From Anaerolineae bacterium (GTDB lineage Bacteria > Chloroflexota > Anaerolineae > Anaerolineales > E44-bin32): DNA of 64,000 nt. The stretch is from NCBI GenBank assembly GCA_011192015.1, contig DUET01000088.1, positions 1 to 64,000 on the forward strand, written 5' to 3'. The number at the start of each line of letters is the position of its first letter. Within the stretch, counting starts at the first letter, position 1. The notes under the pieces were generated by a model that saw nothing but the letters and a program-made list of their open reading frames with translations, did no database searches and was not told the origin of the DNA. This document shows, piece by piece, positions 3,537-32,009 of the stretch. The position numbers and the translations under genes are program-made.

Positions 3537-7454
<3,918 letters not shown>

Positions 7455-7518
7455 ACACAGCTCCTAATAACTGATACGTATGTGGTGGTGGTTGTTATCT
7501 ATGGGCGCGAATGAAGAA

Positions 7519-7560
7519 AGCGCGATCCCCCGCTAAGCCTCGGTTTAGCCGGTTCGCGCT
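7519..7560 (-). promoter_or_regulatory. Stem-loop in the rpoB leader, possible attenuator
   Basis: In the predicted rpoB leader the minus strand forms an outer 7-bp stem, AGCGCGA (7560-7554) with TCGCGCT (7525-7519), and an inner 5-bp stem GCTAA/TTAGC (7549-7545 with 7536-7532). The T-rich stretch TTCTTCATT follows. It sits about 65 nt before the rpoB ATG. It could be an intrinsic attenuator or a binding site for autogenous control, but no known riboswitch or ribosomal-protein leader motif was recognised. Confidence 0.5.
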
Positions 7561-7633
7561 AATGCCTTTTCCCTTGTCCCACCACTACGCCTATTGTCAA
7601 ATCCGATACTCACGCCTTGCTTTGCGAACTCAT

Positions 7634-7662
7634 AGTTTACACGACACGCATGGCATTGTCAA
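7634..7662 (-). promoter_or_regulatory. Sigma-70-type promoter of rpoB
   Basis: The minus strand has TTGACA (7662-7657), exactly 17 nt, then TAAACT (7639-7634). This lies in the 318-bp gap 7455-7772 between the transglycosylase gene and rpoB. Transcription from about 7627 gives a leader of about 170 nt that contains the stem-loop at 7519-7560. The remaining 110 bp up to the transglycosylase stop show nothing recognisable. Confidence 0.8.
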
Positions 7663-7772
7663 CCAAAATGGAATATCGATGCGGTTGGAATCCAACAATT
7701 GCCATGGTTTTCCCGCATTTACGAGCATATGCAAGGCCAACAACGCGAGAAGGATCCCCCAACTGCCGAGCA

Positions 7773-10190
7773 TCAGTCCAGGACGGTGTATAGCTGGCGG
7801 TAGATCGTATAGGTTTCGTAGATGCGGCGAATGTATAGATGAGGTTGATTGAGGCGAATGACTTCGAGGAAGAGATCCGGATCGTCTGGCACCATTTCTT
7901 TCCAAATGGCCGCGTTGCCCGGACCCGCATTGTAGGCAGCCAGCGCAGCAAACAGATCGCCATCGAAGCGGTCGCGCTGTTGGGCCAGATAATATGCGCC
8001 GAAGCGAACACTGACGAAGGGTCGGTAGAGATCGTCATCGGTATAGTTATCCGGCCAACCGAGTTGGGCAGCGATCGATTGCCCGGTGCTGGGAATGACC
8101 TGCATCAGCCCCCGGGCTGCGGCGTATGACGTTACAAAGCCTTCGAAGGCGCTCTCCAAACGGACCACGGAAAACAACAACAGGCCATCCAGGTCCTGAT
8201 GGAAGGCTTCGAGAAGGATCAGCTCACCGAAATAGTGACCAAAGCGAATGTGGTTGAAATATGGCGGCGCGTTCATCGTGGCGGCGTCATCCATGCCTGC
8301 CAGATGCAGGATCTGCCGCGCACCATGGATGGCGGATCGGTACAGACCCAGATCGAGGAATTTGTGGACCAAGCGGAACGTGGCCACGGGATCGTTCTGC
8401 ACCGAACTGCGCAGATCCTCGAATTCGGCCCGCGCTTCATTGAACAACCCCAGTCGCCAGAATTCCTCGCCGCGGATCAAGCGGGGATCCGAAGCCAGCG
8501 CAGCATCGAGATCGAAGAGGGATTCGGTCGTCTCGATGCTGAATGTCTGCCGCAGCCAAGCCTCTGCTTCCTGACGTTCAGCTTCGATGTCGGTGCTGAA
8601 ATCGAAGACGCCGAAGGATTCGAAGGGTTCGTTCCCATCCAGCAAATCTTGCGCTCGAACCGAGTAATACCCGGTCGGATCTGCAGCGGCCGCCAGTCCC
8701 CAGGCGGTGTGCGCCGCTTCTTGATCTCCCTGGGCTTGATGGCACTTGCCCACCCACAATTGCGTGGCGGCGAGCTTGGCGGAGTCGCTGGCAAATGCAT
8801 TCGCCTGCTGGAAGCTGCTGAGTGCAGCGGCAAAATCCCCACGCCGGTAGCGTACAAAGCCGCTTTCCCAAGAACCCCAATAGGCGTAGCTGCTGGCTGG
8901 GTATTCATTCGCAATGCGCAACCAGATGGTGGCGGCTTGCGCCAAATCACCCATGCGCTCTGCCAGACGCCCAGCGTCGAAGAGCAATTCCGGAGCCCGG
9001 ACGTGATCCGGGAACGTGGTTAGGAAATCCAGGTGGGTTTGCAGTGAGGCGGCGAGATCATTCTGGTAGGGCCACTGGATCTGGGCAATCTGAAGCCATG
9101 CCTCAGGGACGAGGGCTTCCCCGGGGAAGTTATCGATCAGGTATTGGAAATCGAGTAGCGCGTTGCTGGGATCTCCCAAAGCGAGCAGCGTCAACCCGCG
9201 GTAGTAATAACCTGCTGCAGTTTCGGTTCCGGATAGATAGCGGTTGAAGGCGTTCAATGCCGGTTGCGTGGCGCCGGCGTAGTAATCCACCAGCCCTCGC
9301 TGGAACTCATCCACCGGCACTTCCGCATCCACGAGGGCGATCAAGCCGATGTAGGTATCGTAAGCATTGGGATAGTTGTAGACTGAATCCAGGTAGCGCT
9401 CGTAGGCACCGTCGAGATCCCCCACGGCTTCCAATGCCTGCCCGGCCAGCAGATTGACAGTGGCCTTCGTGGTGCCAGCGCTGCTGTATGCATAGACCTG
9501 ATCGAAAGCCTCGAGAGCCAGCTCGTATTGCCCGTCCTCCAACCTTGCTCGGCCGATCTTGATGAGCACACCCAGCGTGCCACCAAGGCGTGGTGCCTCC
9601 ACAGCCGCCTGGAAACGCAGAATGGCTTCGACTGGATTGCCCACACTGCGAAGAATGTCTCCTGCACGTTCTTGAACATAGGAATCGATGATGCCTGGAC
9701 GGTACTGCAGGTAGTGATCGTAATCCTGCAGCGCAGAAAGCGGATCATCCAGCGCTTCATACACCCGAGCACGCAGGAAGTAGCCTTCACTCCGGCGTGG
9801 ATGATCCGGATAAGAATCCAGGTATACGCTGAGCACCTGCAAAGCTTCCGTATAGCGCTGAGCACGAACCAATGTGGTTCCGATTCCGAGTTGGGCGAGG
9901 GCGGCTTCATCCGTCGAAGAACCCGAGTCGAGAACGGATTGGTAGGCATCCAGAGCCCGATCCCAATCGCCATTGAACAGCGCCCAATCTCCCTCATCAA
10001 GACGTACGGCGGGAATCGGCGTCGCTGTGGGTGTGGGTTGCAGCGTGGAGGTAGGTGTGGGACTGCTGATCGCTTCGGATGCTGACCCGGGCGTCTGGAA
10101 CCTATCGCCGAGCATGGGATTGTTGCACGCAACGGCAACCAACCCAAAGATGAGGAGAACGATGCCCGAGGCAAGGCGGGATAACCGCAT
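7773..10190 (-). CDS. TPR-repeat lytic murein transglycosylase lipoprotein
   Basis: An 805-residue exported lipoprotein: MRLSRL, a hydrophobic stretch and the lipobox-like VAVAC with Cys near residue 22, then a Ser/Thr/Pro-rich linker. The middle is a long array of TPR-like helices (for example ALAQLGIGTTLVRAQRY and SEGYFLRARVYEALDD). The C-terminal SLT domain begins near residue 670 with VVRLESAFEG, whose Glu is the expected catalytic acid, followed by ARGLMQVIPSTG and AAYNAGPGNAAIW. This is the Slt70-like architecture of enzymes that cleave peptidoglycan glycan strands with 1,6-anhydro products. The ATG at 10190 is chosen because the -10 element ends only 7 nt upstream; the frame is open further upstream, with alternative ATGs at 10199 and 10271. 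Confidence 0.85.
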   Translation of the reverse strand: MRLSRLASGIVLLIFGLVAVACNNPMLGDRFQTPGSASEAISSPTPTSTLQPTPTATPIPAVRLDEGDWALFNGDWDRALDAYQSVLDSGSSTDEAALAQLGIGTTLVRAQRYTEALQVLSVYLDSYPDHPRRSEGYFLRARVYEALDDPLSALQDYDHYLQYRPGIIDSYVQERAGDILRSVGNPVEAILRFQAAVEAPRLGGTLGVLIKIGRARLEDGQYELALEAFDQVYAYSSAGTTKATVNLLAGQALEAVGDLDGAYERYLDSVYNYPNAYDTYIGLIALVDAEVPVDEFQRGLVDYYAGATQPALNAFNRYLSGTETAAGYYYRGLTLLALGDPSNALLDFQYLIDNFPGEALVPEAWLQIAQIQWPYQNDLAASLQTHLDFLTTFPDHVRAPELLFDAGRLAERMGDLAQAATIWLRIANEYPASSYAYWGSWESGFVRYRRGDFAAALSSFQQANAFASDSAKLAATQLWVGKCHQAQGDQEAAHTAWGLAAAADPTGYYSVRAQDLLDGNEPFESFGVFDFSTDIEAERQEAEAWLRQTFSIETTESLFDLDAALASDPRLIRGEEFWRLGLFNEARAEFEDLRSSVQNDPVATFRLVHKFLDLGLYRSAIHGARQILHLAGMDDAATMNAPPYFNHIRFGHYFGELILLEAFHQDLDGLLLFSVVRLESAFEGFVTSYAAARGLMQVIPSTGQSIAAQLGWPDNYTDDDLYRPFVSVRFGAYYLAQQRDRFDGDLFAALAAYNAGPGNAAIWKEMVPDDPDLFLEVIRLNQPHLYIRRIYETYTIYRQLYTVLD

Positions 10191-10197
10191 AGCGAGC

Positions 10198-10226
10198 ATA
10201 TTAAAGGAAGTACTTGGGCATGTCAA
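10198..10226 (-). promoter_or_regulatory. Promoter of the transglycosylase gene, giving a leaderless mRNA
   Basis: The minus strand reads TTGACA (10226-10221), 17 nt, TAATAT (10203-10198). The expected start site, about 7 nt after the -10, coincides with the ATG at 10190, and there is no Shine-Dalgarno motif. A leaderless transcript is therefore the simplest reading. Confidence 0.75.
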
Positions 10227-10300
10227 TGGCCTCGAGCCTATCGAAGGCATGGTTGGGACGAGATGCAACATCTTGGAAGCGAGGATGAGGATGATCGACC

Positions 10301-10329
10301 TTGTGTCGAGGATGCCTCCATGCTAGACT
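10301..10329 (+). promoter_or_regulatory. Promoter of the mtnA operon
   Basis: TTGTGT (10301-10306), a 17-nt spacer and TAGACT (10324-10329), preceded by TGC so that it also fits an extended -10. It is the only good candidate ahead of mtnA and diverges from the transglycosylase promoter about 75 bp away. Confidence 0.6.
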
Positions 10330-10399
10330 GGGTTCGTGGGGCTCGCGGCGCTCTCCAAGCTGAGAGCGCGTTTTGCTGCGACCCACGGCGAGGTGTGTG

Positions 10400-11458
10400 A
10401 TGCGGACCGTCCGATGGGACCCAGACGGACCAGCGGTGCTCATGATCGATCAACGTCTCCTGCCTGCAGATTTCCAGATCCTCACTCTCACAACCGCGGC
10501 CGAGGTGGCGCAGGCCATCCAAGATATGGCTGTTCGCGGCGCACCGGCGATCGGCGTTTCGGCAGCCTTCGGACTGGCCTTGGCGGCGGTGAACAGCCGG
10601 ACCCGTGAGGTCGAAAGCTTGTGGCAAGAACTCGAGACTGCCTCGAGCATATTACGGGCTGCCCGCCCGACTGCCGTCAACCTGAGTTGGGCGCTCGATC
10701 GCCTGCTTCAGGCGGCTTTCGAGTTAAAAGGAAAAGGAACCGAAGCCATTCGTGAATGCCTGGTGGTGGAAGCGCAGCGCATGGCCGATGAAGATGTGCG
10801 CATCAATCGGCGTATGGCCGAGCACGGCGCCGCCTTGATCCAGGATGGCGCCACACTCATCCATCACTGCAACACAGGCGCACTGGCGACTGTCGACCAT
10901 GGCACAGCCCTGGGCGTGATCCGTACCGCCCACGAACAAGGAAAGCGCATCCACGTCCTGGTCGATGAGACCCGACCACGGCTGCAAGGCGCTCGGCTCA
11001 CGGCTTGGGAGCTGGCTCAATACGGCATCCCGCATGAGGTTATCTGCGACAACGCCGCCGGCCACTTCCTGAGTCGAGGCGTCGTGGATGCGGTCTTGGT
11101 GGGCGCGGATCGCGTTGCCGCAAACGGCGATGTTGCCAACAAGATCGGAACCTACATGCTGGCGCTGGCCGCGAGCGACAACCAGGTTCCCCTGTATTGC
11201 GTGCTGCCCACATCCACCATCGATTTGACGCTACCTTCCGGGGAGGAGATCCCCATCGAATTTCGCGAGGCTGCGGAGGTGCTGGAATTGCAGCGGGACG
11301 GTAAGCCGATCGCGCCAGCGGGATGCCAAGCACGCAATCCCGCTTTCGACATCACTCCTCACCGGTTGGTGACAGCCTTCGTCACCGAAGTCGGCGTGCT
11401 GCATCCCCCTTATGACGTCCATCTTCAGCGTGCCGTTCAGGAGGCCCAACCAAAATGA
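10400..11458 (+). CDS. mtnA: S-methyl-5-thioribose-1-phosphate isomerase
   Basis: The enzyme converts 5-methylthioribose 1-phosphate to methylthioribulose 1-phosphate in methionine salvage. The 352-residue product has the family segments RGAPAIGVSAAFG (46-58), HHCNTGALAT with the expected catalytic Cys157, and VGADRVAANGD with the expected catalytic Asp237, followed by NKIGTY. The ATG at 10400 is preferred over an in-frame ATG 9 codons upstream because GAGGTG lies just before it and the protein begins at the family start (MRTVRW). The stop overlaps the next gene by 4 bp (ATGA), so translation is probably coupled. The eIF2B-like paralogue ribose-1,5-bisphosphate isomerase is less likely given the motifs and the ahcY neighbour. 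Confidence 0.92.
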   Translation: MRTVRWDPDGPAVLMIDQRLLPADFQILTLTTAAEVAQAIQDMAVRGAPAIGVSAAFGLALAAVNSRTREVESLWQELETASSILRAARPTAVNLSWALDRLLQAAFELKGKGTEAIRECLVVEAQRMADEDVRINRRMAEHGAALIQDGATLIHHCNTGALATVDHGTALGVIRTAHEQGKRIHVLVDETRPRLQGARLTAWELAQYGIPHEVICDNAAGHFLSRGVVDAVLVGADRVAANGDVANKIGTYMLALAASDNQVPLYCVLPTSTIDLTLPSGEEIPIEFREAAEVLELQRDGKPIAPAGCQARNPAFDITPHRLVTAFVTEVGVLHPPYDVHLQRAVQEAQPK

Positions 11459-12404
11459 ACATCGTGCTGACAGGCTCGATCGCCATCGATTACTTGATGA
11501 CCTTTCCAGGGCATTTCTGTGATCACATCCTGCCCGACAAACTCGATTGCCTGAGCCTATCCTTTCTCGTGGATAAACTCACCCGGCGGCGTGGAGGCGT
11601 TGCTGCCAACATCGCCTACACGATGGCGCTCCTGGGGGAACGACCTGCAATCATGGCGACGGTCGGCGAGGATTTCGGAGAATACCGCGCTTGGCTGGAA
11701 AGCCTAGGCGTGAACACCAAGGCTGTGCGCACGGTTCCGGATCTGCTGACGGCTTCCTTCTTTGTGAACACCGATCGTTCCAACGCGCAGATCGCTTCGT
11801 TCTACGCCGGCGCGATGGCGGAAGCCGCACAATTGCACTTTGCCGATCTGCCGGATGCACCTGACCTGGCGGTGATCTCCCCCAACGATCCCGCTGCCAT
11901 GGTCGCCTACGTAGAGGAATGCTGCCGGCTTGGAATCCGGTTCGTCTACGATCCCAGCCAACAGATCGTGCGCCTCAACGCCGAAGCGCTGCAGCAGGGG
12001 ATCGAAGGTTGCGAAGCGCTCTTCGCCAATGACTACGAGATCGGCATGATTGAGAAGAAGACAGGTCTGGATCGAAAGGCGATTGCAGAAAAGATCAAGC
12101 TGCTCGTGATCACCTGCGGCGAACACGGCTCCGACATCTACAGCGAAGGCGAGCAAGTGCATGTGGACGCGGTGGCACCGAAGCAGATTGCCGATCCGAC
12201 CGGTGTGGGAGATGCCTACCGGGGAGGTTTCTTCAAGGGCTACATGCATGGGGTGAGCCTGGAACAATGCGGGCAGATAGGCTCTTTGGCGGCCACTTAC
12301 TGCCTGGAAACGCTGGGTCCTCAGGATCACAGCTACGATCTGAAGGAATTCACGACCCGCTTCCGAGAACATTTCGACGACGACGGTGAACTAGACCGGA
12401 TCCT

Positions 12405-12408
<4 letters not shown>
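11455..12408 (+). CDS. PfkB-family sugar/nucleoside kinase, possibly adenosine kinase
   Basis: A 317-residue ribokinase-fold kinase. The substrate-side glycine motif RRGGVAANIAYTMALLG is near residues 44-60, and the ATP/anion-hole signature DPTGVGDAYRGGF near residues 242-254 contains the catalytic Asp. The N terminus (GSIAIDYLM) is typical of the adenosine/nucleoside-kinase-like branch seen in Chloroflexota. It overlaps mtnA by 4 bp and the following GNAT gene by 4 bp. With ahcY in the same unit, a role in phosphorylating adenosine released from S-adenosylhomocysteine, or a thioribose-type sugar, is a reasonable inference; the sequence alone does not settle the substrate. Confidence 0.85.
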
Positions 12409-14451
<2,043 letters not shown>

Positions 14452-24772: not shown

Positions 24773-24801
24773 TCGACAAACGAGAACAATAATGTCATAC
24801 T
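24773..24801 (+). promoter_or_regulatory. Candidate promoter of the first ArsR gene
   Basis: TCGACA (24773-24778), 17 nt and CATACT (24796-24801): five of six and four of six consensus matches with ideal spacing, about 80 bp upstream of the ATG at 24883. No clear inverted repeat is seen around it. Confidence 0.45.
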
Positions 24802-24882
24802 CCCAACCAGAAGAGCTGTTCGCCAAGCTGATACGAGTGCCAAGACTCCTAAGCCGGATACGGGGACGAGGATGTACAAAAC

Positions 24883-25239
24883 ATGATGAATTCCAATCTC
24901 GAAGAGGAAGTCTGCGAACTCCACTCCAGGCTCTGTGAAGGGCTGGCCGATCCAAGGCGAATTCTGATTCTGTACGCACTTGCGGATCACGCCCGCAATG
25001 TGACTGATTTGAGTGAAGAGCTCAACATCCCCCAACCGACGGTTTCCCGTCATTTGAAGAACCTTCGCGAACGGGGCATCGTCAACTCGAGGCGTGAAGC
25101 CCAATCCATCTATTACACAATTGCGGATCCACGCATCATCGAAGCCCTGGATCTCTTACGCCAGGTACTGGCAGACATGCTGGAGAGTCAGGCATCCCTG
25201 GCTCGATCCGTGACTGAGATCACCCACAGTCAAGACTGA
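24883..25239 (+). CDS. ArsR-family winged-helix regulator, copy 1 of the sulfur locus
   Basis: A 118-residue ArsR/SmtB protein. DPRRILILYALADHARNVTDLSEELNIPQPTVSRHLKNLRERGIV is the DNA-binding winged helix, and QSIYYTIADPRIIEALDLLRQVL is the dimerisation end. Cysteines are at 11 and 18 only, both before the winged helix, so the metal-binding and SqrR/BigR cysteine patterns are not present in their usual places. About half of its residues match the second ArsR at 25489. It may sense sulfide, persulfide or redox state, judged from the neighbouring sulfur genes, but this is inference. Confidence 0.88.
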   Translation: MMNSNLEEEVCELHSRLCEGLADPRRILILYALADHARNVTDLSEELNIPQPTVSRHLKNLRERGIVNSRREAQSIYYTIADPRIIEALDLLRQVLADMLESQASLARSVTEITHSQD

Positions 25240-25423
25240 CCATCTGTTCCCTCCTTCCCCTGGCCGCTTCCAGAATCTGGAAGCGGCAACCCATGCCGCA
25301 CGCCAAACCATGATCTGAGAGCAGCGCATCAAGATGGTGTTCGCGTCGCATCCGAAACATAGGCTCCCCACCTCCCAGAATCCAGTCAGGAACCCTCTCG
25401 ATCCATGCTCGGCCATTTCTATT

Positions 25424-25469
25424 ATATGTTTATGTATGTATATACTTTTATGTGTATATGTGATATAAT
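25424..25469 (+). promoter_or_regulatory. AT-rich promoter/operator region of the second ArsR and sulfur genes
   Basis: A stretch made almost only of A, T and G with repeated TATGT/TATATG units ends in TGATATAAT (25461-25469), a perfect extended -10. It stands out against the GC-richer neighbourhood and lies 20 bp before the ATG, directly ahead of AGGAAAGGAAGG. Repeated AT-rich half-sites are what ArsR-family repressors usually bind, so autoregulation is likely. Confidence 0.65.
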
Positions 25470-25488
25470 ACAGGAAAGGAAGGACAGA

Positions 25489-25863
25489 ATGGCCGACACA
25501 TTCGAGCAAGAGATATACCGACTTCACTCCAGACTGTGCGCGGGGCTCGCTGATCCCAAGCGCATTCTCATGCTGTATCAGTTGGCCCAGAAACCGCAGT
25601 GCGTGAACGAAATCTCGGAATCGCTTGGGATCTCCCAACCCAGTGCATCCCGCCATCTTCGCCATCTGCGCGAGCGCGGATTGGTGGTCGCAGAGAGGGA
25701 TGCGCAATCCGTCATCTACAGCCTTCCAGATCATCGCATCATCGAGGCTCTGGACCTTCTGCGTGAGATCCTGGAAGACATCCTTGCCAACCAAGCCTCG
25801 CTTTCCCGCACTGTCAGTGCAACCCAGCCATCCACATCGGATATTCAGGAGCAAGTATCGTGA
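25489..25863 (+). CDS. ArsR-family winged-helix regulator, copy 2, first gene of the sulfur operon
   Basis: A 124-residue ArsR/SmtB protein (DPKRILMLYQLAQ...ISQPSASRHLRHLRERGLV; IIEALDLLREILEDIL). Cysteines are at 17 and 38. Cys17 lies in the RLC motif shared with copy 1; Cys38 is at the N-terminal side of the recognition region. The ATG at 25489 is preferred over an in-frame ATG 28 codons upstream because it follows a strong purine-rich ribosome site and the promoter -10 lies between the two. The stop overlaps the GTG start of the flavoprotein gene by 4 bp, so regulator and enzyme are translationally coupled. Confidence 0.9.
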   Translation: MADTFEQEIYRLHSRLCAGLADPKRILMLYQLAQKPQCVNEISESLGISQPSASRHLRHLRERGLVVAERDAQSVIYSLPDHRIIEALDLLREILEDILANQASLSRTVSATQPSTSDIQEQVS

Positions 25864-27092
25864 AAACATTCCTAATCCTCGGCGCCGGAACCGCAGGCAC
25901 CATGGTGGCCAACAAGATGAGCCAACATCTGGACCCCATGGAATGGAAGATCGTCGTCGTCGACAAGGACGAGACCCACATCTACCAGCCCGGTCTGCTC
26001 TTCATCCCCTTCGACATCTACACACGTGAAGATGTCATCAAGCCCCGGCGCGACTACCTGCCCCGCAGTGTTGAATTCATTCGCTCGGACATCGAGTTGA
26101 TCGAACCGGGGGAGAATCGCGTGCGGTTGACGCATGAAAAACGCGTCATCAACTACGACTACCTTGTAATTGCCACCGGAAGCAGGATCGCCCCGGCGGA
26201 AACAGACGGACTGCTGGACAACGGTTGGCACGAGAACGTCTTCGACTTCTACACACTCGAGGGTGCCGTCGCCCTGTCGCGCTTCCTCAAGTTCTGGAAG
26301 GGCGGACGCATGGTGTTGAACATCGCCGAGATGCCGATCAAGTGCCCCGTCGCACCGCTGGAATTTCTCTTCCTCGCCGACTGGTTCTTCCATGAGCGCG
26401 GCATGCGCGATCAGGTGGAGATCACATTAGCTACGCCTCTACCCGGCGCATTCACGCGCCCGCGTGCAGCCGCAATCCTGGGAGACATGCTCGAGCGCAA
26501 GGGAATTGCAGTTGAGGCGGAATTCAACATCATGGAAGTCGATCACGAGAAGAACGTGATCCGATCCTACGATGAACGCGAAATACCCTTCGACCTGCTG
26601 GTCACAATCCCCACCAACATGGGCGCCGAAGTGATCGAGCGCTCAGGCATGGGGAATGAACTCGCCTTCGTTCCCACGGATAACCACACCCTGCAATCCA
26701 AGCAGTGGGAGAACGTGTGGGTCATCGGTGACGCTGCCGACGTACCAACCTCCAAGGCTGGTTCCGTGGCTCATTTCATGCTCGATGTTGTCATCGAGAA
26801 CATCCTGCGCCACATGGAAGGCTTGAAACCCCTGCCCAAGTTTGACGGCCACGCTAATTGTTTCATCGAATCCGGCTTCGATAAGGGCATCCTGATCGAC
26901 TTCAATTACGACGTCGAACCCCTTCCAGGCAAGTACCCACTGCCGGGTTTGGGACCCTTCTCTCTGCTGCAGGAATCCTCGGTCAACCACTGGGGAAAGA
27001 TGCTCTTCCGCTGGATCTACTGGAACGCCTTGCTCAAAGGAGAGGAATTGCCGTTCGAATCCCAGATGAGCATGGCCGGTAAGTGGAGTTGA
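25860..27092 (+). CDS. Sulfide:quinone oxidoreductase-like FAD protein, GTG start
   Basis: A 410-residue flavoprotein of the SQR/FCSD/NDH-2 superfamily. The FAD-binding GAGTAG (8-13) is at the N terminus, YLVIATGSR near 101-109 and VIGDAADVPTSKAG near 288-301 contact FAD. Two cysteines, C162 in MPIKCPVAP and C334 in HANCF, fit the redox pair of SQR. Their spacing of 172 equals that of Cys178 and Cys350 reported for Acidianus ambivalens SQR (recalled, not checked). The C terminus (LFRWIYWNALLKG) is amphipathic, as in membrane-attached SQR. It would oxidise sulfide to polysulfide and reduce quinone. A related non-sulfide oxidoreductase cannot be excluded, but the DsrE and TusE neighbours favour sulfur. 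Confidence 0.82.
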   Translation: MKTFLILGAGTAGTMVANKMSQHLDPMEWKIVVVDKDETHIYQPGLLFIPFDIYTREDVIKPRRDYLPRSVEFIRSDIELIEPGENRVRLTHEKRVINYDYLVIATGSRIAPAETDGLLDNGWHENVFDFYTLEGAVALSRFLKFWKGGRMVLNIAEMPIKCPVAPLEFLFLADWFFHERGMRDQVEITLATPLPGAFTRPRAAAILGDMLERKGIAVEAEFNIMEVDHEKNVIRSYDEREIPFDLLVTIPTNMGAEVIERSGMGNELAFVPTDNHTLQSKQWENVWVIGDAADVPTSKAGSVAHFMLDVVIENILRHMEGLKPLPKFDGHANCFIESGFDKGILIDFNYDVEPLPGKYPLPGLGPFSLLQESSVNHWGKMLFRWIYWNALLKGEELPFESQMSMAGKWS

Positions 27093-27102
27093 GAGACCTG
27101 CG

Positions 27103-27792
27103 ATGGACAAGAACCTAGAGCTTCTACATCAGAAGATCGATCACCTCACCGAACAACTCGAAACCCAGCACCGGCGGCAGCAGGTTTGGGATGATCTCTT
27201 CACCGACCTGGCCCCCGTCGGCAACCACCTGGTCAAACTCACCATCGACGAGCTGGCGGAGATCGGATCTGATTTCGAACTGCAGGACCTGCTCTTCCTC
27301 ATCAAGCGGCTGCTGCGGAATACACGCTCGCTGCTGCTCCTGCTCGATCGGCTGGAGGCCCTGATGGGCGTCTCCGATGAGGTGCAGCTTCTCGGCAAAC
27401 AGGCCTTTTCTGCAGCCGTCGAGAGCCTGGATCGGCTGGAACGAGAGGGCTACTTCGCCTTCGCACGTGAATCCTGGAACATCTTGGAGAAGATCGTGAA
27501 CGAATTCTCTGTGGAGGACATGCAGACCCTGGGCGAAAGCATCGGTCCGCTGCTATCCACCGTCCGCAAATTGACCCGGCCGGAGATTCTGATGCTCGCC
27601 GATCGCTCCCTTGACGCCCTGCAGGCGCCGGATGGGGATGGCAAATCAGTCTCCTTACTGGCTCTGCTGCGTCAGCTCACCGACCCGGATGTCCGCAAAG
27701 GACTATCCCGCTTGCTGAACGTGGTCAAAGTATTCTCAGAAGAATCGAATCCTACCGAACACCAATTGGTAACCATGGAGGAAACACAATGA
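27103..27792 (+). CDS. DUF1641 family protein
   Basis: A 229-residue, soluble, mostly helical protein: an N-terminal coiled-coil-like segment (LLHQKIDHLTEQLETQHRRQQ), then leucine-rich helices (LLFLIKRLLRNTRSLLLLLDRLEAL) and the C-terminal DVRKGLSRLLNVVKVF typical of DUF1641. The biochemical role of the family is unknown; members commonly accompany flavoprotein oxidoreductases and formate-dehydrogenase-type genes. Here it sits between the SQR-like gene (10 bp) and the TusE-like gene (4-bp overlap), so it is probably an accessory or assembly partner of this module. Confidence 0.8.
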   Translation: MDKNLELLHQKIDHLTEQLETQHRRQQVWDDLFTDLAPVGNHLVKLTIDELAEIGSDFELQDLLFLIKRLLRNTRSLLLLLDRLEALMGVSDEVQLLGKQAFSAAVESLDRLEREGYFAFARESWNILEKIVNEFSVEDMQTLGESIGPLLSTVRKLTRPEILMLADRSLDALQAPDGDGKSVSLLALLRQLTDPDVRKGLSRLLNVVKVFSEESNPTEHQLVTMEETQ

Positions 27793-28112
27793 GTACGCAA
27801 ACCGCAACCACCATCTTAGAAAGTTTAGCCCTGGACGAAGAGGGTTTCTTGCTCGATCCGCAAACCTGGACACGCGAAATCGCCCAGGCTCTCGCTCAGG
27901 CAGAGGGCATAAGCGAATTGACAGAAGCCCATTGGAAGATCATCGAATTCTCCCGTGAGAGCGCCACAGAAAGTGGGGCCTCACCGACCTTACGTCAGAT
28001 CACGAAGGGAACCGGCATTTCGACCAAGGAGCTCTTCGCACTCTTTCCAAAGGGACCTGCGAAGAAAGTCGCCAAGATCGCCGGTGTCGGCAAACCCGAA
28101 GGTTGTATCTAA
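27789..28112 (+). CDS. TusE/DsrC-family sulfur carrier with a single terminal cysteine
   Basis: A 107-residue DsrC/TusE fold protein (DEEGFLLDPQTWTREIAQALAQAEGI at the start; the arm ends GVGKPEGCI). The penultimate Cys106 is the CysA position that carries persulfide in all active members. The CysB position, eleven residues earlier, is Ala within KKVAKIAG, so the trisulfide chemistry of true DsrC with DsrAB is not available. This is the TusE-like cysteine pattern. No dsrAB is visible in the window. It overlaps the DUF1641 gene by 4 bp and precedes a DsrE3-like gene, a natural donor/acceptor pair. Confidence 0.88.
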   Translation: MSTQTATTILESLALDEEGFLLDPQTWTREIAQALAQAEGISELTEAHWKIIEFSRESATESGASPTLRQITKGTGISTKELFALFPKGPAKKVAKIAGVGKPEGCI

Positions 28113-28152
28113 GCGTAGGTATCCAATCACACCTTGAAAAGGAGTTCTATTC

Positions 28153-28656
28153 ATGGCCGAAGAAACACGCAAGATGGCGTTCATCTGCTCCAAGGGGAAC
28201 TTGGATATGGCCTATCCAGCGTTGATCATGAGCTGGGCAGCCCTGGGAAACGGTGTGGACGTGACCATCTTCTTCACCTTCTGGGGTCTCGATCTGATCA
28301 CCAAGAAGCGTGTCGACAAGCTTGAGCTTTCTCCCATCGGAAACACCAGTATGAAGATGAGCATGATGGGACTTCCCACGGGCAACCTGGGGATTCCCAA
28401 CTGGATGGCCATCATTCCTGGTATGACCGCCTTCACTTCCTGGTTCATGAAGCGCAAGATCGCCGAAGTTGAGGCGCCTCCCGTTCGTGAATTCATGGAG
28501 ATGCTTTCCGATGCCGGTGCCAAGCTCTATGGGTGCAAGATGACCGCAGACATGATGAACTTGAGCCCCGATGATCTGATCGAAGAAGCTCAAGAGATCG
28601 TCACCGCCAGCGAATTCATCGACATGACCGAAGGCGCGCAGGTCGTTTTCATCTGA
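28153..28656 (+). CDS. DsrE3-like sulfurtransferase
   Basis: A 167-residue DsrE/DsrF-fold protein. Two conserved-looking cysteines are C12 in AFICSKG and C128 in LYGCKMTADMM; the latter matches the active cysteine motif of DsrE3A proteins that pass thiosulfonate or persulfide sulfur. The central PNWMAIIPGMTAFTSWFMKRK is hydrophobic and may be a membrane-touching or oligomer surface. AAGGAG precedes the ATG. It closes the operon arsR-SQR-DUF1641-TusE-DsrE3 and is followed by a terminator. Its partner is most likely the TusE-like protein 40 bp upstream. Confidence 0.88.
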   Translation: MAEETRKMAFICSKGNLDMAYPALIMSWAALGNGVDVTIFFTFWGLDLITKKRVDKLELSPIGNTSMKMSMMGLPTGNLGIPNWMAIIPGMTAFTSWFMKRKIAEVEAPPVREFMEMLSDAGAKLYGCKMTADMMNLSPDDLIEEAQEIVTASEFIDMTEGAQVVFI

Positions 28657-28687
28657 TCGTTCTCGCGCCTCCATCCTTGCTTTGCCC

Positions 28688-28718
28688 GGGGGCTGCCTGT
28701 ACAAAGGCGGCCCCCTTT
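28688..28718 (+). terminator. Rho-independent terminator of the sulfur operon
   Basis: Stem GGGGGCTGCC / GGCGGCCCCC (10 bp with one wobble pair), loop TGTACAAA, followed by TTTCCTTGCTT. It begins 31 bp after the DsrE3 stop. Confidence 0.8.
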
Positions 28719-30105: not shown

Positions 30106-31868
30106 CTAGAAACCGATCCAAAAGTAGCGGATGATGATCCACAGAGTCAGCACCAGGATCGTAAGGATCGTCACGGGTACGCCCACACGAGAGAAATCCT
30201 TGAAGCTGATCCGGTATCCAGCCCTATCCAGGATCCCCGCAGCTACGATGCTGGGTGCTGAACCGATGTAGGTGGCATTACCGCCCAATCCGGCTCCCAG
30301 GGCCAGCGCCCAATAAAGCACATTGCTGCTTCCTCCCGGCAGTGATTGCGAGAGAAACACAGCCACCGGCACGAAGGCAGCTGCGAAGGGAATGTTGGCC
30401 ACGATGGCTGAAGCCCCGCAGAAACCCAGATGATGGCAACAGTCGCCAGGAGTAGATTCCCAGCCGCGATCTCGCTCACACCCTCCGGAATCAACTGGAT
30501 CAGCCCTACTTCTTGGATGGCACCCACCATCATGAACAGGCTCATGAAGAACACCAGGGTGGTCCAATCCACCTCGCGCAGCATCTCTCCCATTGTTGGT
30601 CGACTCCAGAGCAGCAGAGCTGTAGAACCCAGGATGGCGACGACCGCCGGGGGCATGTGGAACAGGTCCTCCAGGAAGAAAAGGATCAGGGTAATGCCAA
30701 AGATGATCAACGACTTGCGCAGTAAATCTGGATCGGAAAAGCGCGCGCCCTCCTCCAACCGATCCAGCAGGGTTTTGGAGGAATGCTCGTGTGCGCGTAT
30801 GAATTCCGAACGATAGAGCCAGGGGATCATCAGCACGAGCACCAGCATGCCCAGCAGCGCGATGGGAAGCATGTTGACCAAGAACTGATTGAAACTGAGG
30901 CCCACATAGGAGCCGATGATGGTGTTGGGAGGCGTGCCGATCAAGGTGGCTGCGCCCCCGATGTTGGAGGCCAACACTTCGGGCACAACGATGGCGGCCG
31001 GGTGGATGTCAAGCGCCACAGCGATCTGAATGCTTACCGGCGTCATCAGCAACATGACCGTCGTATCGTTGAGCACGGACGAAACCAGCGCAGTGATGCC
31101 CACCAGAACGATCACCACGATGATCGGTTTGCCCCGACTGAGTCGAAAAGTGCGATAGGCCAACCATTGGAAGACGCCCGTCTGCGCCATGACGGCCATG
31201 AAGATCATCATCGTCAGCAGGAGAAAGATGACATCGAAATCAATGTACGCGATGGCCTGCCTGAAGCCGATGATCCAGTAATCCGCATTGAAGCTGCCGA
31301 TGAAGTAGGATACGCCGAAAATGGCGGCAACGCCCAAGAAGGTAGCGATCGTTTCATGGAGCAGGCTCAGGGAGATGATCCCAAACACCACCACAAAGAT
31401 GCCCGTGGCCAGGAAGAAAGCCGGATTGAAGATGCGGGAAAGGACCACGTTCGAGATGCTGATGACATGCGCGCCATTGATCTCGACGACACGATCGTAG
31501 ATGAAACCCTGGCGGGAGGTGAGGAAGCCTTGCTTGCTGATCTCCAAGGCCACCGCATCTTGTTCGACACCGAGCGGATCCAGTTCGAACTCGGCGACAA
31601 AGGAACCTTGATCATCCGTGAGAACATAAGCAGCGTTCTCCCCATGGTCGATGAGATCCTGCTGCACTCCTGCAATGAAGATGCGGATCTCGGCGTGATC
31701 CACAGGCACGTCCTGCGTATCCACGATGCGACCGGTCACGGTGATGGTTTCTACATCCGGTATTTTGGGGTCTGATTGGGCAAATCCAACCTTGAAGAAG
31801 AAAAAGATTGGTAGCGCGACCAGGGTGAGGAACAATGATCGGTAACTTGAGATGCGAATGCGCCTCAT
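30106..31868 (-). pseudogene. ArsB/P-protein-like ion transporter, interrupted by a frameshift
   Basis: Reading the gene with one extra base gives a 587-residue protein: a signal peptide (MRRIRISSYRSLFLTLVALPIFFFFKVGFAQ), an extracytoplasmic beta-sandwich-like domain (ITVTGRIVDTQDVPVDHAEIRIF) and about twelve helices of the ion-transporter superfamily, with SSVLNDTTVMLLMTPV, ASNIGGAATLIGTPPN and, after the break, ASAIVANIPFAAAFVP and GGNATYIGSAPS, as in ArsB/NhaD and P-protein (OCA2) relatives. The reading frame changes at a run of four G (minus strand, 30417-30414); five would restore SAGASAI. It may be a sequencing or assembly indel, or a real recent mutation, because both halves are otherwise well preserved. 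Confidence 0.8.
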
Positions 31869-31877
31869 GATTTTGAG

Positions 31878-31883
31878 ATTATA
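31878..31883 (-). promoter_or_regulatory. Perfect -10 box 9 nt before the transporter ATG
   Basis: TATAAT on the minus strand, followed by nine bases and the ATG at 31868. No Shine-Dalgarno motif and no good -35 are seen. It suggests a leaderless or nearly leaderless transcript. Confidence 0.4.
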
Positions 31884-32009
31884 GTCCAGGTGGGTGTAAT
31901 CCTCTTCATGAGTCTTAATGGGGAATAAGGAGCCTGCCTCATTTCCCACAGAATGATGGTTCAGGAGATCGGCAGCCAATCCGCAGGCATTGACCGCCGG
32001 TGATGGGGG

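Follow-up and report, generated by a model that had tools for sequence, protein, structure and literature searches.

A widespread sulfide:quinone oxidoreductase operon with a proposed DUF1641 coupling subunit and a putative DsrE/TusE sulfur relay

Where would the electrons and the sulfur of sulfide go in a bacterium that carries a sulfide:quinone oxidoreductase (SQR) gene in one cassette with a DUF1641 gene and two sulfur-carrier genes, and no dsrAB? The question is raised by a cassette at positions 24,883-28,715 of a 64,000-nt stretch of DNA (the window) from an Anaerolineae bacterium (GenBank assembly GCA_011192015.1, contig DUET01000088.1). The window is part of contig C96 of a 2.95-Mb genome that is 90% complete. 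We propose that the cassette is a cytoplasmic sulfide-oxidation operon feeding the respiratory chain, in which an SQR would work with a DUF1641 coupling subunit and a DsrE/TusE relay; we assign this model as a whole a probability of about 0.66. The cassette is a real, widespread operon.

Conservation of the cassette

Gene order was compared in 48 loci (L032-L079), 42 of which were informative. Set aside were three loci cut by contig ends (L037, L066, and L067), two distant relatives without the cassette (L050 and L051), and one locus with SQR-DUF1641 only (L077). The informative set comprised three Actinomycetota records, one WOR-3 bin, and otherwise Chloroflexota; L034 was counted as carrying DUF1641, the overlapping gene having been missed by the neighbour-distance limit. 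The order SQR-DUF1641-TusE-DsrE was found in 35 of these 42 Chloroflexota-type loci, and the remaining seven lacked DUF1641 only. In a separate sample of 25 Actinomycetota loci (L160 of which repeats L075), TusE and DsrE were present in all, whereas DUF1641 was present in 8, which carried the full order, and absent in 17. Genes flanking the cassette were not conserved among loci. Because the arrangement recurs in at least two phyla while its flanking genes do not, it is far beyond chance, and the conservation in relatives on which a preliminary description of the window had made its interpretation depend was borne out.

SQR-DUF1641 alone, without TusE or DsrE, occupied 24/25 loci in the phylum of genome G404. 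Natural cassettes thus exist without either part, and DUF1641 and TusE-DsrE are separable modules. The SQR tree contained about five changes in DUF1641 presence, at least four of them backed by well-supported branches, and where a Chloroflexota locus lacked DUF1641, none was found at any other place in that genome. A single SQR seems to come with two independent additions, one serving quinone coupling and the other the disposal of sulfur.

Gene layout

All genes of the window cassette lie on the + strand and are tightly packed:

24,883-25,239, + strand: ArsR-family regulator, copy 1 (ArsR1); HTH_5, 9.5e-18; NF033788, 82 bits (cut-off 55)
25,423-25,470: AT-rich repeat region (18-nt direct repeat, 78%) with a TATAAT-like box; candidate operator/promoter upstream of ArsR2
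25,489-25,863, + strand: ArsR-family regulator, copy 2 (ArsR2); HTH_5, 1.2e-16
25,860-27,092, + strand: type III SQR, flavin adenine dinucleotide (FAD) protein of 410 aa with C162 and C334; NF049943, 648 bits (cut-off 525)
27,103-27,792, + strand: DUF1641 protein, 229 aa, without cysteine; PF07849, 29.8 bits (gathering score 21), 5e-7
27,789-28,112, + strand: TusE/DsrC-like carrier, 107 aa, with Cys106; DsrC, 3.2e-32; TIGR03342, 90 bits (cut-off 53.5)
28,153-28,656, + strand: DsrE-family protein, 167 aa, with Cys128; DrsE_2, 5.8e-34
28,688-28,715, + strand: terminator-like hairpin GGGGGCTGCCT/AGGCGGCCCCC followed by TTTCC; 11-bp stem, 6-nt loop, T-rich tail

The SQR gene has a GTG start and shares a 4-bp overlap (GTGA) with ArsR2; 10 bp separate it from the DUF1641 gene, which overlaps the TusE-like gene by 4 bp (ATGA). 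A 40-bp gap follows, and AAAAGGAG precedes the start of the DsrE-like gene. The hairpin was the strongest stem and stood at the expected place, although terminators as a bare pattern were not rarer in shuffled sequences. Coordinates, gene order, packing, and terminator agreed with the preliminary description; its ArsR assignment was right in kind and wrong in number, there being two such genes (57% identity) rather than one.

The flavoprotein

The closest named relatives of the window SQR were from Anaerolineales and other Chloroflexota bins. Its match to the SQR_III_seleno model NF049943 was above the cut-off (5e-195). SQR and NDH-2 are both flavoproteins of one two-Rossmann superfamily, and an NDH-2-like function had been named as one outcome that would undo the preliminary interpretation. 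Among solved structures, the top relatives by sequence were SQRs (4e-42, vs 3e-6 for NDH-2), and C162 and C334 were kept in 98/98 aligned sequences (selenocysteine, Sec, counted as cysteine); an NDH-2 identity was therefore ruled out. The pair corresponds to the two catalytic cysteines expected of a type III SQR, described as Cys159/Cys339 in the cable-bacteria enzyme (PMC13047784). Judged by sequence, the enzyme belongs to the type III SQRs.

Five SQR relatives from the phylum of G404 (L186, L188, L194, L199, and L201, each with DUF1641 downstream) had an in-frame TGA precisely where C334 is otherwise encoded. These are probably selenoproteins with Sec at 334, which fits the selenoprotein subtype that the NF049943 model names. 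Because this natural Cys-to-Sec exchange falls exactly at 334, it marks C334 as redox-active.

The DUF1641 protein

The DUF1641 protein was predicted to be all-helical. No cysteine is conserved, and 34/37 sequences, the window copy included, have none; a role as sulfur carrier is therefore unlikely and was rejected. The family profile matched the solved structure of ForE1 from Bacillus subtilis (2e-7), YjlC (0.0045), and an NDH-2 membrane coupling protein (0.0085). ForE1 is needed by a formate dehydrogenase for menaquinone reduction; formate:menadione activity depends on it, and it most likely binds menaquinone-7 (PMC8808070). The window protein resembles ForE in exceeding the PF07849 gathering score and in adjoining an enzyme expected to reduce quinone.

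In Chloroflexota, DUF1641 genes neighboured the cassette SQR, two other SQR-like flavoproteins, and a [NiFe]-hydrogenase operon with hypA and hypB; a persulfide dioxygenase (PDO)-rhodanese fusion accompanied one of these two flavoproteins. In L151, L152, and L157 the operon consisted of DUF1641, an SQR-like gene, and a metallo-beta-lactamase (MBL)/rhodanese (PDO-like) fusion, with a divergent LysR-like gene adjoining. In L154 and similar loci among L082-L104, from other Chloroflexota, DUF1641 headed hypA-hypB-[NiFe] hydrogenase operons, and a DUF1641 gene has been listed with a hydrogenase operon in Parageobacillus (PMC12976888). Because the protein is related to coupling proteins, and because all its neighbour enzymes are expected quinone reducers, we propose that it is a quinone/membrane-coupling subunit that would couple SQR to menaquinone.

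SQR sequences themselves may carry a trace of the pairing: Gly363 occurred in 68/71 sequences with DUF1641 vs 7/25 without, a difference that is only suggestive since the rows share ancestry and the SQR C-terminal region as a whole was not significantly associated with DUF1641 loss (P = 0.10).

Sulfur carriers

The penultimate Cys106 of the TusE-like protein was present in 43/43 sequences and is the only cysteine of the window copy. A canonical two-cysteine DsrC was rejected, the neighbourhood of the other position (CysB) being V/A/M/I, K/R, and A in 43/43; with its penultimate cysteine alone and a TIGR03342 score above the cut-off, the protein is of the TusE type. This state has been described for organisms without DsrAB (PMC3397948) and fits a genome without dsrAB.

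Cys128 of the DsrE-like protein was present in 45/45 sequences; the window copy has one other cysteine, Cys12. Assignment to DsrE2 failed (NF047629, 108 bits; cut-off 210). The protein had been labelled DsrE3. Members of that group are recognized by genetic linkage to dihydrolipoamide dehydrogenase or lipoate-binding proteins, with Cys-X7-Cys in DsrE3A, whereas proteins whose genes lie downstream of SQR make up DsrE4 (PMC4175335). Its neighbours are SQR and TusE and it has no Cys-X7-Cys; by gene context it is DsrE4-like, and the DsrE3 label was abandoned.

In Allochromatium vinosum, sulfur passes from DsrE-Cys78 to DsrC-Cys111 and not back (PMC3397948). Because of this direction, SQR to DsrE to TusE is by analogy the likeliest order, and the DsrE-to-TusE relay suggested in the preliminary description is plausible.

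Search for the sulfur acceptor

Acceptors were sought in 19 cassette genomes, including that of the window. The window genome had no NIR_SIR domain, i.e., no dsrAB, so the absence first noted for the window extends genome-wide; a similar statement about sHdr genes is correct for the window, whereas Hdr-like genes are present elsewhere in the genome. NIR_SIR was missing in 14/19 genomes, which rules out Dsr as the acceptor in the window genome and 13 of the 18 others. TusA was missing in 12/19, and CCG (Hdr) domains in two. A full-length PDO-rhodanese match was missing in five (the window genome, G005, G104, G184, and G216), where any match was partial (to a generic MBL or rhodanese), and a PDO-rhodanese was therefore ruled out as common acceptor; most of the cassette genomes had long matches. 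G104 and G216 (both 99% complete) had none of the four.

Contig C93 of the window genome (L140, C93:50000-68000, about 4586-12817) carries ArsR-TusA-two HdrA/Qmo-like flavoproteins-FeS protein-DsrE-TusA-YedE-DsrE. Its yedE, tusA, and dsrE genes also occur in the YTD cluster, which has been connected with sulfur disproportionation (PMC12998232); the C93 cluster is a possible local acceptor in this genome. A cassette-bearing relative (L142, G120:C3:650000-669000) has an sHdr/LbpA-like cluster of Hdr-like and EtfAB-like genes, two GcvH/LbpA-like genes, and TusA.

Regulation

The operon is probably under sulfide control. One cysteine (LHSRLC) was common to the cassette ArsRs. Neither window copy reached the curated cut-off of 155 for a BigR-type sensor (55 and 41 bits), and ArsR1 was below the cut-off of the TsoR model. 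The regulator gene before the cassette varied among ArsR, an HTH_17-PocR protein (12 loci), and an XRE-cupin protein. HTH_17-PocR stood directly upstream in place of ArsR in L034, L035, L039, L042, L044, L061, L063, L070, and L075, and the XRE-cupin protein replaced ArsR in L079.

Upstream of relatives' cassette ArsR genes, TGTGAC-N5-TCACT near -95 totalled 95 (68 in shuffled sequences, standard deviation 2.4) and ATATG-N2-CATAT near -27 to -49 totalled 84 (69, standard deviation 2.3); both patterns were picked after viewing the sequences, and the comparison is descriptive. The CRP/FNR-like TGTGAC-N5-TCACT together with an ATATG-N2-CATAT-like palindrome was seen in L032, L033, L045, L052, L055, L065, L069, and L072. 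In the window, TGTGAC-N5-TCACT was not found upstream of ArsR2, where the AT-rich repeat stands instead. Beyond the cassette, a large transporter-like frame at 30106-31979 (- strand) appears to be split in two (578 aa + 153 aa), by a frameshift or an assembly error.

Proposed mechanism and alternatives

In the proposed model, ArsR regulators would sense reactive sulfur. The type III SQR, to judge from its family, would pass the electrons of sulfide via FAD to menaquinone, leaving sulfane sulfur on the C162/C334 pair. DUF1641, as its relatedness and gene context suggest, would be a second subunit without cofactors, one that anchors SQR at the membrane and aids menaquinone access, on the pattern of ForE with ForC and of the proteins named YjlC-type with NDH-2. 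Sulfane sulfur would pass to DsrE Cys128 and on to TusE-like Cys106, as in A. vinosum DsrE/DsrC, and the TusE-like protein would hand it to an acceptor encoded outside the cassette.

Several observations weigh against this model. The SQR-DUF1641 pair is a candidate complex deduced from sequence and context, and the relay is drawn by analogy. The YjlC and NDH-2 coupling-protein matches to the DUF1641 profile were modest, that of the Huc membrane-associated subunit was insignificant (E = 0.39), and Foldseek and VIA-align found no relative with the DUF1641 model (elongated helices; predicted template-modelling score, pTM, 0.32). Since 24 of the Chloroflexota and Actinomycetota cassettes do without DUF1641, not every SQR of this kind needs it, and the type III SQR of Caldivirga is reportedly active alone. 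No sulfur sink of the known types was common to all 19 cassette genomes.

That DUF1641 sits between SQR and TusE in most Chloroflexota-type loci could instead mean that it handles sulfur or acts as a chaperone between SQR and the carriers, much as the preliminary description had imagined in calling it the undescribed part of the cassette. We consider this very improbable and dropped the idea: it has no conserved cysteine, it is related to ForE1 and NDH-2 coupling proteins, it stays with SQR where TusE and DsrE are missing and is missing from the 24 loci that keep them, and it also adjoins hydrogenase genes. A relay serving biosynthesis (tRNA 2-thiolation via MnmA, or Fe-S assembly) and not energy metabolism seems improbable as well. 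Single-cysteine TusE is the Escherichia coli tRNA-thiolation type (PMC3397948), and in most of the 19 genomes the cassette TusE was the only DsrC-family protein found. The relay is coupled, however, to an SQR that reduces quinone and to an ArsR regulator, which suggests sulfide stress or energy use. MnmA also works without TusE in many bacteria, which counts against biosynthesis.

Two further alternatives, between which we see no difference in likelihood, are unlikely without being far-fetched. The cassette might feed Hdr-type sulfur oxidation encoded elsewhere, with TusE passing sulfur to TusA/DsrE and an Hdr/Qmo-like complex; the C93 cluster and the gene set of G120 fit this, but G104 and G216 bear the cassette without CCG domains or TusA, and TusA is absent from most of the genomes surveyed. 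Or SQR might serve pure detoxification, releasing polysulfide or thiosulfate, with the carriers merely buffering sulfane sulfur. ArsR control would suit such a role, as would the absence of a shared downstream enzyme, yet a strictly conserved carrier pair exceeds the needs of a simple buffer.

Significance and comparison with known systems

SQR is usually regarded as a single-subunit membrane-bound flavoprotein. A conserved partner drawn from a menaquinone-linked family would alter the view of quinone access in sulfide oxidation. The coupling role would give DUF1641 one general, testable function. The cassette also marks sulfide-oxidation capacity in Anaerolineae and Acidimicrobiia, often without usual markers (dsrAB), and raises the question of the destination of TusE-borne sulfur. 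The SQR-DUF1641 pairing as a probable quinone-coupled two-subunit SQR appears to be new: no paper joining DUF1641 and SQR was found in the literature covered, although subscription papers and preprints lay outside that coverage and may describe it. Also new are the separability of SQR-DUF1641 from the TusE-DsrE relay and the lack of a common known acceptor. A broader generalization is tentative and rather doubtful, namely that DUF1641 is one quinone-coupling module for SQR, NDH-2, formate dehydrogenase, and [NiFe]-hydrogenase, and that Chloroflexota and Actinomycetota pass sulfur via DsrE and single-cysteine TusE to a non-Dsr, non-sHdr acceptor. If it held, many bacterial SQRs would be two-subunit enzymes, and the DsrE/TusE path would add another way of handling sulfide sulfur in the cytoplasm.

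The A. vinosum DsrEFH-DsrC relay (PMC3397948) resembles the cassette in leading from the active cysteine of a DsrE-family protein to the penultimate cysteine of DsrC, but its two-cysteine DsrC feeds DsrAB, whereas the cassette has a one-cysteine TusE and no DsrAB. In the SQR-TusA-DsrE4 island of Metallosphaera cuprina (Mcup_1722-1724; PMC4175335), SQR likewise has a gene of the DsrE family and a small sulfur carrier for neighbours; the island is archaeal, TusA replaces TusE/DsrC, and DUF1641 is not mentioned. The version in the phylum of G404 has the same SQR family and the same DUF1641 partner, without TusE or DsrE and with Sec at C334 in some. YjlC and the NDH-2 membrane coupling protein (PDB 9snk and 9pxk) are related to the DUF1641 profile by a weaker match (0.005-0.009), and their partner system oxidizes NADH and has no sulfur carriers. 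In the ForCE formate:menaquinone oxidoreductase of B. subtilis (ForE = YjgD, DUF1641; PMC8808070), the partner is a molybdenum formate dehydrogenase, whereas that of the cassette is a flavoprotein SQR, and the helices at the N-terminus of the window DUF1641 protein form a longer part than in ForE. Both systems have a small cofactor-less DUF1641 subunit, with a profile match of 2e-7, and in both its gene adjoins that of a quinone-reducing enzyme without transmembrane helices.

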